Below are positions 45,989 through 52,341 of a stretch of DNA of 64,000 nucleotides, piece after piece. The stretch's first letter is position 1; the number at the start of each line of letters is the position of its first letter. The DNA lies in NCBI GenBank assembly GCA_017935065.1, contig JAGBIF010000022.1, positions 42,769 to 106,768 of the forward strand. The letters are read 5' to 3'. The notes under the pieces are model-generated. The model saw only the letters and a list, made by a program, of their open reading frames with translations. It searched no databases and was not told the origin of the DNA. This DNA comes from Clostridia bacterium (GTDB lineage: Bacteria > Bacillota > Clostridia > Oscillospirales > CAG-272). Both the position numbers and the translations under genes were made by a program.

Positions 45989-46045
45989 ACCGAAAATTCA
46001 TCAACAATATGTGCGGTCGCCTATGGCGACGGAATGGAGATTATT

Positions 46046-46369
46046 ATGGGAAAGGTGAGACGGGGAAAGGACACTCTTACCGAGCTTGTCGAGGCGCTGT
46101 GTAAGGACTACGGCAGACGGCAGGCGCTTATGCGCGGCGAGGCAACCTCGCGCCGAGTGAAAAACGAGCTTGTCTATCTTAATATGCGTCTGTTTGAGGC
46201 GGCAGGCGAGATAGTCGGAGGCAATCTTGCCGAGGCATTTATAAGGGATATCGGAGAGGGCATAGGCTACGGCAGGACCGAGCTTTCCTTCTTTTCTGAG
46301 ACCGAATATAAAACGCAAAAGCGCCTGTGTGTGCAAAATATAGCGAAAAGGCTCTTTCTTTGCGATTGA
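46046..46369 (+). CDS. Small basic/helical protein of unknown function
   Basis: A 107-residue protein starting at ATG 46046, which has GGAG six bases upstream (an in-frame ATG at 46034 is possible). It is helical and rich in charged residues (TLTELVEALCKDYGRRQALMRGEATSRRVKNE). No membrane segment is present and no family is recognised. A six-bp hairpin (46016-46030) precedes the ribosome site. It lies between the LexA-like-controlled small gene and spoIIAA and could belong to either transcript. Confidence 0.5.
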   Translation: MGKVRRGKDTLTELVEALCKDYGRRQALMRGEATSRRVKNELVYLNMRLFEAAGEIVGGNLAEAFIRDIGEGIGYGRTELSFFSETEYKTQKRLCVQNIAKRLFLCD

Positions 46370-46452
46370 AATTTTTTCACCCCCGACAGCTTTTGACAGC
46401 CTTCGTCAGACCCTGTGTGCTAGAATTAACAAAAACAAAAGAGGATGTAAAA

Positions 46453-46767
46453 ATGACAGCAGTAAGACTTGAAGACAGTGACGGTGCGCTTATTGCATAT
46501 CTGTGCGACGAAATCGACCACCATACCGCAAGGTAGATACGCTCGGCAGTTGACACCCGACTGACCGAAGTGACGCCGAGTGAGCTTATACTTGATTTTT
46601 CGTCTGTATCCTTTATGGACAGCTCGGGCATCGGACTTATCCTTGGAAGAAGCGAGCTTTGCAGGACACTCGGCATTCGCGTAAGAGTGCGCGGGCATAC
46701 AGGAATAATAGCGAGGCTTATAAGGATGTCTGGAGTATCAAGGCTTGAGAATATTACGGTTGAGTAA
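46453..46767 (+). pseudogene. spoIIAA: Anti-sigma-F factor antagonist SpoIIAA, interrupted by an in-frame amber codon
   Basis: The complete frame would encode a 104-residue STAS protein. GAGGATG precedes ATG 46453, and the first 27 codons end in CDEIDHHTAR, matching the SpoIIAA GELDHHTA block. Codon 28 is TAG (46534-46536). The same frame then continues without another stop, giving the phosphorylatable serine motif SFMDSSGIGLILGR and MSGVSRL. A CAG-to-TAG change would explain it. A restart at GTG 46570 would lack the first strands. SpoIIAA normally binds SpoIIAB to free sigma-F in the forespore. Downstream spoIIAB and sigF are intact, so the lesion is recent, suppressed or a base error. Confidence 0.85.
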
Positions 46768-46792
46768 CAAGGAAGGATGTATAGGGAAAAGG

Positions 46793-47236
46793 ATGAAGAC
46801 GATAATCAATGAAATGAAAATAAGGCTTCCCGCCGTAAGTCAGAATGAGAGCGTATGCAGAAGCACCGTCTCGGCATTTCTGGCAGGACTTGATCCTACG
46901 GTGGAGGAGCTGGGAGACATAAGGCTTGCGGTGAGCGAGGCGGTGACGAACTGCATAGTTCACGCCTATCGCTCGCTTCCACGGGGGGAGGTTGGTTACA
47001 TATATGTATCTTTAAGAGCCTATTCCGACCGCGAGGTTTCAGTCGAGATATCCGATAAGGGCTGCGGTATAGAGGATGTGGAGCAGGCTATGCAGCCTGC
47101 CTATACTACGGGAGACGCTTCTCAAAGATGCGGGATGGGCTTTCTCGTTATGGAGAGCTTCACCGACAAGCTCACCGTTAAAAGCAAGGTGGGGCGGGGA
47201 ACCTGTGTACTGATGAGGAAATTTTTAAAGCCCTGA
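46793..47236 (+). CDS. spoIIAB: Anti-sigma-F factor / serine kinase SpoIIAB
   Basis: A 147-residue GHKL ATPase/kinase. The N-box is EAVTNCIVHAY, the G1 box ISDKGCGIED and the G2 region CGMGFLVMESF. It should bind sigma-F and phosphorylate SpoIIAA on the serine of its DSSG motif. An in-frame start at 46745 exists, but the ATG at 46793 begins the usual MKTIINEMKIRLPAVSQNE and has GGGAAAAGG close upstream. It lies 25 bases after spoIIAA and 10 before sigF, the normal spoIIA order. Confidence 0.88.
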   Translation: MKTIINEMKIRLPAVSQNESVCRSTVSAFLAGLDPTVEELGDIRLAVSEAVTNCIVHAYRSLPRGEVGYIYVSLRAYSDREVSVEISDKGCGIEDVEQAMQPAYTTGDASQRCGMGFLVMESFTDKLTVKSKVGRGTCVLMRKFLKP

Positions 47237-47246
47237 TACGGGAGCT

Positions 47247-47984
47247 GTGATGAACGCGTCAATAAACACCACCTCAAAATACGATAAAAACCCCGCTCTT
47301 ATCGAAAGCTACCGCGCGGGAAATGCCGAGGCAGGCGAGGAGCTTGTCCTTCTGAACAAGCCGCTCGTGTGCGCGCTTGCGTCAAGATATACAGGGCGCG
47401 GAACCGAGCTTGAGGAGCTTATCGAGATAGGCAACCTCGGGCTTGTCAAGGCAATAAACACCTTCGATATTACGCGGGAGTGCGCCTTCTCGACCTACGC
47501 TGTTCCGCTGATTTTAGGCGAAATAAGAAGATACCTGCGCGATGACGGAATAATTAAGGTATCAAGAGAATATAAGCGCCTTCTCGCAAGGCTAACCAAG
47601 GAGCGAGAGACGAGACTTTCAAGAGGGGAGGACGTCAGCCTTACCGCGCTTGCCGAGGCGGTCGGAGTTACCCCCGAGGATGCCGCAAGTGCGCTTCATT
47701 CGGGAATACCGCCTCGCTCGCTTGACGAGTGCGCCTACGAGGATGAGGGAGCAACGCTCGGCAGTCTTGTGTTTGACGAGGACGAGCAGAGGCGGAGCTT
47801 TGATTCCTTCTGCGTAAGGCTCGCCATTGAACAGCTACCCGAGCTGTGGCGGAAAATAATAACCCTTCGCTACTTCCGCGACCTGTCTCAGCAGGATACC
47901 GCGTCGGTGCTGGGGCTTACTCAGGTCAAGGTTTCGCGTGAGGAAAAGAAGATCCTCGCGCGCCTCAAGGAAAGCCTCGGATAG
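47247..47984 (+). CDS. sigF: RNA polymerase sporulation sigma factor sigma-F
   Basis: A 245-residue sigma-70 family protein of the F/G/B group. Region 2 has ELEELIEIGNLGLVKAINTFD and FSTYAVPLILGEIRRYLRDDG. Region 4 ends with LSQQDTASVLGLTQVKVSREEKKIL as the HTH. Identity as sigma-F rather than sigma-G rests on the position directly after spoIIAB. It is the first compartment-specific sporulation factor. GGGAGCTG precedes the start. It ends in TAG, showing that amber is a real stop in this operon. Confidence 0.9.
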   Translation: MMNASINTTSKYDKNPALIESYRAGNAEAGEELVLLNKPLVCALASRYTGRGTELEELIEIGNLGLVKAINTFDITRECAFSTYAVPLILGEIRRYLRDDGIIKVSREYKRLLARLTKERETRLSRGEDVSLTALAEAVGVTPEDAASALHSGIPPRSLDECAYEDEGATLGSLVFDEDEQRRSFDSFCVRLAIEQLPELWRKIITLRYFRDLSQQDTASVLGLTQVKVSREEKKILARLKESLG

Positions 47985-48092
47985 CAGGGAAGCTCGGATA
48001 GCAAGGAAAGTGACGGAGACGCAAGGAGCCCGCCACACACGCACGCGTAAATATTTAAAATGTTAACAAATTGTGAAATGTAAGGAAAGCTA

Positions 48093-48121
48093 TTGATTTT
48101 TACTGTGGTATAGTTTAGAAT
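48093..48121 (+). promoter_or_regulatory. Sigma-A promoter of groESL
   Basis: TTGATT, 17-bp spacer, TAGAAT, directly upstream of the CIRCE operator. Confidence 0.75.
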
Positions 48122-48135
48122 ATATCCAGTGAGCT

Positions 48136-48162
48136 TTAGCACTCGCGACTTTTGAGTGCTAA
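48136..48162 (+). promoter_or_regulatory. CIRCE operator (HrcA binding site)
   Basis: TTAGCACTC and GAGTGCTAA separated by nine bases, an exact match to the CIRCE consensus, located between the promoter and groES. Regulation by the repressor HrcA is expected. hrcA is not in this window. Confidence 0.97.
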
Positions 48163-48183
48163 TTTTGAAAAAGGAGAAAAGAT

Positions 48184-50120
<1,937 letters not shown>

Positions 50121-51162: not shown

Positions 51163-52341
51163 TTATATCTCGGGAATTTCAACCTCAATTTCGCGGCCAA
51201 GCTCTGCCGATTTTGCGATTGAGGCAAGAATTGCCTGATTGTAGAGTATCTGACTTGAGGGAACGGGTGCCTCGGTGCCACCCTTGCAGGCGTCAAGGAA
51301 GGTTCTTATCTTCTTGTCAAAGTTGGAGGGCGCGCCCGCCTTTTCGTTAATTTTCGGTATTTTGGTCTCTACCTGCTTGCCCGCAACCTCGTGATAAAGC
51401 ACAAGGTCACCGCCGATAGAGCCGTTCCAGCACTCGGTGGAGGGAATACGCAGACCGCCCTTCGTTCCGAGAATAATCGTATCACCGGGAGTGTCGATGT
51501 TCATCGCCCACGCGATACGGAAGTCGATAACGATATCGCCCTCAAGCCTTATAAATGCCGCCGCGAAATCGTCAACCTCAAATTTCTTTGCATACTCGGG
51601 ATGCCCTGTCGCGACATAGTTGCAGTAGCAGGGGTCCTGACCGAAGAATGCCGACTTGTAGCCCGAGACGGTAAGCGGTTTGGGATAGCCTATCGCGTTA
51701 AGCACCATATCGAGCGAGTAGCAGCCGATATCCGCAAGCGCCCCAAGTCCCGCGGTTTTGTCCTCAATAAAGGTAGTGCCAAAGGGGGTGGGAATACCGC
51801 GTCGTCTGCCGCCACCTGTCTGTATGTAGTATATCTTACCAAGCACGCCCGACTGTACGACATCCCTCACCATCTTCATATTGTCGTCAAGCCTCGGCTG
51901 AAAGCCGATAGAGAGTATCTTACCGCTTTTCTTTTCGGCGCGCATAACCTCTACGGCTTCCTCGGTGGTGACCGTAAAGGGCTTCTCAAGAAGCACGTGA
52001 ATACCTGCTTCAAGCGCGGCTATCGCACAGGGCGCGTGCTGACGGTTGTAGGTGCAAACCGAAACCGCATCAAGCTTAAGCGCCTCATTGTCCGCAATCA
52101 TCTCATCGCAGGAATTGTAGCACTTGACACCCTCAATTCCGTGCTTTTTAAAAAAGGCATCAGCCTTACCGGGTACAAGGTCTGCACCCGCGACTATCTC
52201 AACATCGGGCTGCTTCAGATATGCCGCGATATGCGCATCTGCAATCCAGCCGCAGCCTACGATGCCCACCCTCAGCTTTTTGCTTACGTCAATCTCTTTA
52301 ACCTCTTGGTTTTCCTTAAATACATCAAGAATACCTGCCAT
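51163..52341 (-). CDS. Gfo/Idh/MocA-family oxidoreductase
   Basis: A 392-residue NAD(P)-dependent sugar dehydrogenase family protein. The ATG at 52341 has GGGGG eight bases upstream and is preferred over the frame start at 52422. A leading segment of about 18 residues precedes the Rossmann motif VGIVGCGWIADAH. The EKPFTVTTEEA motif holds the conserved lysine, and the C-terminal substrate domain includes GALADIGCYSLDM, where Asp/His-like residues act. It is likely paired with the downstream epimerase-like enzyme. The promoter region is shared with the AraC gene upstream on the same strand (137 bases). Confidence 0.88.
   Translation of the reverse strand: MAGILDVFKENQEVKEIDVSKKLRVGIVGCGWIADAHIAAYLKQPDVEIVAGADLVPGKADAFFKKHGIEGVKCYNSCDEMIADNEALKLDAVSVCTYNRQHAPCAIAALEAGIHVLLEKPFTVTTEEAVEVMRAEKKSGKILSIGFQPRLDDNMKMVRDVVQSGVLGKIYYIQTGGGRRRGIPTPFGTTFIEDKTAGLGALADIGCYSLDMVLNAIGYPKPLTVSGYKSAFFGQDPCYCNYVATGHPEYAKKFEVDDFAAAFIRLEGDIVIDFRIAWAMNIDTPGDTIILGTKGGLRIPSTECWNGSIGGDLVLYHEVAGKQVETKIPKINEKAGAPSNFDKKIRTFLDACKGGTEAPVPSSQILYNQAILASIAKSAELGREIEVEIPEI

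Follow-up and report, generated by a model that had tools for sequence, protein, structure and literature searches.

An in-frame amber codon interrupts spoIIAA in an otherwise open spoIIA operon of a Clostridia draft genome

Null mutants of spoIIAA in Bacillus subtilis do not sporulate. The spoIIAA product takes part in a partner switch with the kinase and anti-sigma-F factor SpoIIAB: unphosphorylated SpoIIAA binds SpoIIAB and frees sigma-F, SpoIIAB phosphorylates SpoIIAA (on S58 in B. subtilis), and SpoIIE dephosphorylates it (as described in PMC11418112). In Clostridium beijerinckii, a spoIIE deletion strain is described as not sporulating (PMC7522474). Loss of sporulation has also been described for some gut Firmicutes. 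There, the criterion was a low count among 66 signature genes combined with a missing spo0A, and the words spoIIA, sigF and pseudogene do not occur in the main text (PMC8340488). We found no literature on a spoIIAA gene with a premature stop codon.

Here we describe a spoIIA operon with the same gene order as the B. subtilis switch (structures 1th8, 1til, 1l0o and 1auz). Like that system, it has the DSSG motif of SpoIIAA and open genes for the kinase and the sigma factor, and the genome encodes the phosphatase region of SpoIIE. Unlike in that system, an amber codon breaks its spoIIAA. The source is a metagenome-assembled draft genome of a Clostridia bacterium (1,744,302 bases in 47 contigs, 74.9% complete). 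Judging from the records of the nearest sigF relatives, many of which come from the gut of sheep, goat, deer or yak, its host environment is probably the gut of a herbivore. The window, meaning the whole stretch of DNA that we analyzed, is 64,000 nucleotides long, and the features discussed below are:

46034..46369, + strand: conserved 111-amino-acid protein with no assigned function, 5' of spoIIAA (homologues lie 5' of spoIIAA in many congener loci)
46441..46445, + strand: ribosome-binding site of spoIIAA, GAGGA (read from the sequence)
46453..46767, + strand: spoIIAA, anti-sigma-F factor antagonist, cut at codon 28 (translation, PF01740, TIGR02886, comparison with congeners)
46534..46536, + strand: in-frame amber codon TAG, codon 28 of spoIIAA (sequence reading; the sole interior stop among 104 spoIIAA genes)
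46570..46572, + strand: GTG, codon 40, previously suggested as a restart site; unconserved (a start-type codon in 3 of 100 relatives) and without a ribosome-binding site
46612..46629, + strand: FMDSSG core, including the serine that corresponds to S58, phosphorylated by SpoIIAB in B. subtilis (translation; alignment to 1th8 chain B)
46793..47236, + strand: spoIIAB, intact, encoding the anti-sigma-F factor and kinase and preceded by a ribosome-binding site of its own (TIGR01925; alignment to 1til)
47250..47984, + strand: sigF, intact, with TAG as its natural stop (best matches PRK05572 and TIGR02885)
48184..48471, + strand: groES, a usual neighbor of spoIIA in the genus (congener loci)
48492..50120, + strand: groEL, likewise a usual neighbor of spoIIA in the genus (congener loci)

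The gene spoIIAA is the first of the order spoIIAA-spoIIAB-sigF. It starts at the ATG at 46453 and its natural stop is the TAA at 46765-46767. The translation of 46453-46806 reads MTAVRLEDSDGALIAYLCDEIDHHTAR, then a stop, then IRSAVD...FMDSSG...ENITVE and the final stop; there is a single TAG, at 46534-46536. A profile search with the STAS family (PF01740) gave a match that spans this codon (E = 1.7e-17, with one TAG inside the match); the STAS frame is broken at codon 28. For the C-terminal piece alone, the best match was spore_II_AA (TIGR02886, E = 9.4e-14), while the 27-residue N-terminal piece alone had no family match. With X in place of the stop, TIGR02886 was again the best match, at 72.4 bits. 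This is below the model's cut-off of 114.75, as are the scores of two intact SpoIIAA proteins from the same genus (79.0 and 77.5 bits). The frame is no chance resemblance: 38 query proteins (some taken from duplicate records) give alignments that span the stop and show similarity both before and after it. The FMDSSG core aligns with 1th8 chain B, and the phosphorylatable serine of DSSG is kept. A preliminary description of this DNA had placed a TAG at codon 28 of a clear spoIIAA, with SpoIIAA sequence that includes DSSG in the flanking frame, and both statements hold. With this codon, the locus as it stands in the assembly is a spoIIAA pseudogene. The PF01740 search found no STAS paralogue that might replace it: this was the one STAS match in the whole genome as assembled, and with 74.9% completeness a second spoIIAA could be missing from the assembly.

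The rest of the operon is open. SpoIIAB scored 171.6 bits on TIGR01925 (cut-off 135) in an uninterrupted frame. The sigF product scored 202.9 bits on TIGR02885, below the cut-off of 321.45, as do the sigF products of congeners. As the preliminary description had it, spoIIAB and sigF are intact and sigF ends in TAG. In general, SpoIIAA, sigma-F, SigG and SpoIIE from this genome fall below the NCBIfam equivalog cut-offs, and so do the congener proteins that we compared. A sigma-F reporter strain described in PMC11418112 includes a substitution at residue 105 of SpoIIAB. Here, the arginine that aligns with chain position 105 of 1til is retained, so there is no sign of a bypass at that position.

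The surroundings of the operon (46034-50120 in the window) follow an order that recurs in the genus: the 111-amino-acid protein, spoIIAA-spoIIAB-sigF, and then groES-groEL. The 111-amino-acid protein had no NCBIfam or Pfam match in profile searches. A sigma-H-like pattern 5' of spoIIAA was absent from every locus of the genus that was tested, including this one, so its absence is uninformative here.

We compared the locus across 59 genomes, including this one and 35 others from the same genus. Among those 35, the spoIIA locus was present in 31, and in all 31 spoIIAA is uninterrupted and its N-terminal stretch is open. (Of the 47 rows in the locus table, 13 belong to different families within the order; L050 duplicates L020, and genome G010 contributes L003 as a second locus. 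Five loci without both genes were left out of the table, and for L030 our script found no start codon.) A wider set comprised 105 distinct spoIIAB genes, 104 of them with an adjoining spoIIAA; the exception (L075) begins at a contig end, and one of the spoIIAA genes (L134) is partial. If an interior stop is defined as one with more than 12 residues after it, only the spoIIAA of this genome has one. The DHH motif allowed codon 28 to be located in 102 of these 104 genes, the interrupted one among them. The residue at that position is variable, and it is a stop in none of the 101 others.

The four congeners in which profile searches gave neither a STAS match nor a spoIIAB above the cut-off (G005, G017, G020 and G025) might be taken for cases of gene loss. 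In congener loci that reach far enough, groESL follows spoIIA. At E = 1e-30, GroEL has no match in G005, G017 or G020, and G025 has a groEL whose start coincides with the first base of a contig. Because the adjoining groEL is also missing or sits at a contig start, we reject loss of the spoIIA genes in these four genomes, and their absence is best read as an assembly gap.

Separately, genome G010 has two different spoIIAA-spoIIAB loci (L003 and L049), one of which is cut by a contig end. These may reflect contamination or a duplicated operon.

If spoIIAA had been inactive for long, it should have decayed outside codon 28 as well. We compared SpoIIAA branch lengths to a reference tree of SpoIIAB plus sigma-F with 45 tips, chosen as the nearest among 101 operons that were retained out of the 105. 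Dividing the terminal SpoIIAA branch by the reference branch gives 3.3 for this genome; the median is 2.02 and the 90% quantile is 3.33. This ranks sixth among the 44 tips whose reference branch exceeds 0.05, and the five tips with higher ratios (L024, L079, L049, L015 and L087) all have an uninterrupted spoIIAA. Outside codon 28, then, SpoIIAA has evolved somewhat fast but is no outlier. A ratio this far up the range may be compatible with mild relaxation, and prolonged relaxation of constraint is unsupported. Since the ratio is high-ish without being an outlier, a loss, if real, would be recent.

We also searched for further genes with breaks. Homology covered 38 kb of this genome, and within it no second interior stop was accepted. 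The homology scan gave 16 stops with at least two queries, of which we accepted two: the one at 46534 and a TAG in the sigF of a congener (L034, discussed below). The remaining 14 are probably effects of gene ends or start sites (in most cases, one side has just 12 to 39 residues) or antisense (34231 in the window). This tally covers stops with two or more queries, beside which the scan listed 19 with a single query; in an unfiltered version, antisense frames swamped the results. In a scan of codon usage across the window, 47 genes were called; 5 of these end in TAG, and one pair, at 51163, was flagged as a possible broken gene. (A cruder earlier scan had flagged three places in the window, including 51163.) We rejected this candidate, as the pair are two different enzymes. 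The codon-usage scan overlooked spoIIAB, so it is not exhaustive.

The sigF stop accepted in the homology scan is in congener G032 (L034:2978-2980, + strand). It is an in-frame TAG at codon 27, just 77 bases from the end of a contig that holds only the beginning of sigF, with the rest lying beyond the contig end. The simplest account is probably a contig-end error. It is the sole hint of recurrent amber codons in the spoIIA operon, and because the loci were picked around spoIIA, two stops in this operon are no evidence of enrichment.

Other sporulation genes of this genome appear to be in place. In profile searches of the genome, Spo0A, SpoIVA and SpoVAD all scored above their cut-offs and have no stops inside. 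SigG is the best match of a sigma factor on contig C4, below its cut-off. SpoIIE is open and includes the phosphatase region (profile positions 542-763 of 764); its score is below the cut-off, as it is in all 59 genomes. The spoIIE frame (L154:3932-6019, on contig C23) has 706 codons and is shorter than in ten aligned congeners, as it lacks about 94 alignment columns of linker before the phosphatase region. The same stretch is missing from L161 (genome G029), so the shortening is not a lesion peculiar to this genome, and with the phosphatase region complete we rejected SpoIIE damage as a candidate. PdaB (TIGR02764) had no match in this 74.9%-complete genome; 55 of the 59 genomes had a match, and none was above the cut-off. 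The pattern expected of a former spore-former, with spo0A and many other genes absent, is not seen, since spo0A, spoIIE, spoIVA, sigG and spoVAD are all present. The preliminary description had proposed to look for intact late sporulation genes; sigG, spoVAD and spoIVA are there and are open.

Taken together, we think it somewhat probable that the TAG is a genuine and very recent nonsense allele in an uncultured Clostridia species, itself probably a spore-former, which would leave sigma-F locked by SpoIIAB and sporulation blocked. The preliminary description had raised four options: recent loss of sporulation, read-through, restart at the GTG at 46570, and a base error. The first is the best supported, as the other pathway genes that we checked are open, the stop is unique and clear signs of further decay are lacking; read-through and restart found no support. 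We propose that translation of spoIIAA would end after 27 residues, short of the conserved phosphorylation site, which would leave no working SpoIIAA. Because spoIIAB starts 25 bases past the stop of spoIIAA and has its own ribosome-binding site, SpoIIAB would presumably still be made; sigF too has its own initiation signals, and sigma-F should likewise be produced. SpoIIAB would then keep sigma-F bound, the SpoIIE phosphatase would be left without its substrate, and sporulation should halt at stage II.

The main rival to a recent loss-of-function allele is an assembly error. The TAG could be a wrong base, or an artefact of mixed strains in the metagenome assembly, in which case the living cells would have an intact spoIIAA. 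We consider this a real but lesser possibility. A single-base assembly error would look identical to the mutation, and the lack of clear further decay in spoIIAA, along with the open frames of the other pathway genes that we checked, suits an error and a recent mutation equally well. The record is a draft in 47 contigs, 74.9% complete, and the TAG in the sigF of G032 lies in just the kind of place that is prone to error. However, the amber codon in spoIIAA is about 17 kb or more from the ends of the window, inside a contig of 106,768 bases. Also, as neither the homology-covered 38 kb nor the codon-usage scan of the window gave another accepted interior stop, the assembly does not seem to be generally error-ridden.

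Alternatively, the amber codon might be read through, by a suppressor tRNA, by near-cognate reading or by recoding of TAG, to give enough full-length SpoIIAA. The conservation of the frame past the stop, with a rate that is no outlier, would fit with this, as would the second in-frame TAG in the spoIIA operon of a congener. But TAG terminates both sigF and spoIIE in this genome at the same place where the proteins of relatives end, which bears out the earlier statement that amber is not generally recoded, and none of the other 101 readable spoIIAA genes has a stop at codon 28. Among the 19 tRNA genes that we found in this genome, none has the anticodon CTA. The tRNA set is incomplete, as tRNAs for six amino acids (Tyr, Gln, Trp, His, Ala and Ile) were not found, so a suppressor tRNA could be missing from the assembly. 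Decoding as pyrrolysine is unsupported: PylS was above the curated cut-off in 0 of the 59 genomes, including this one, versus 1 of 14 control genomes. Matches to the PylS model below this threshold occur in 46 of the 59 genomes, with two in this genome (the best at 25.6 bits, with a cut-off of 178.15), and we take these to be other aminoacyl-tRNA synthetases. Overall, read-through seems quite unlikely. A more elaborate version is that the genus tolerates inefficiently decoded amber codons in spoIIA, so that leaky read-through would set the dose of SpoIIAA (and of sigma-F, in G032) and act as a brake on commitment to sporulation; we give this even less credence.

Least likely of all is a working short SpoIIAA made by restarting at the GTG at 46570 or further on. 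What is encoded from 46570 onward does score 46.3 bits on TIGR02886 and 47.4 bits on TIGR00377 (both below cut-off), but it would lack the first 39 residues, a stretch that is open in all 31 congeners with the locus. Solved SpoIIAA chains match the query from residues 3 to 13 onward, so the beginning of the domain would be missing after a restart. The GTG has no ribosome-binding site, and of 100 relatives 3 have a start-type codon at the aligned position.

Our preferred reading, a recent nonsense allele, can be set against the losses of sporulation described in PMC8340488. In both cases the organisms are gut Firmicutes (for this genome, probably) in which sporulation may be disappearing. Unlike in those losses, as they are described there, all of the sporulation genes that we searched for except PdaB are present here, and one early switch is cut. 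A survey of gene presence would, we infer, score this genome as that of a spore-former. If the TAG is an error, then a draft genome can appear to have lost a developmental program through a single base. If the base is real, then this would be a gut spore-former caught at the first step of losing sporulation, and it would offer a natural test of where that loss begins.
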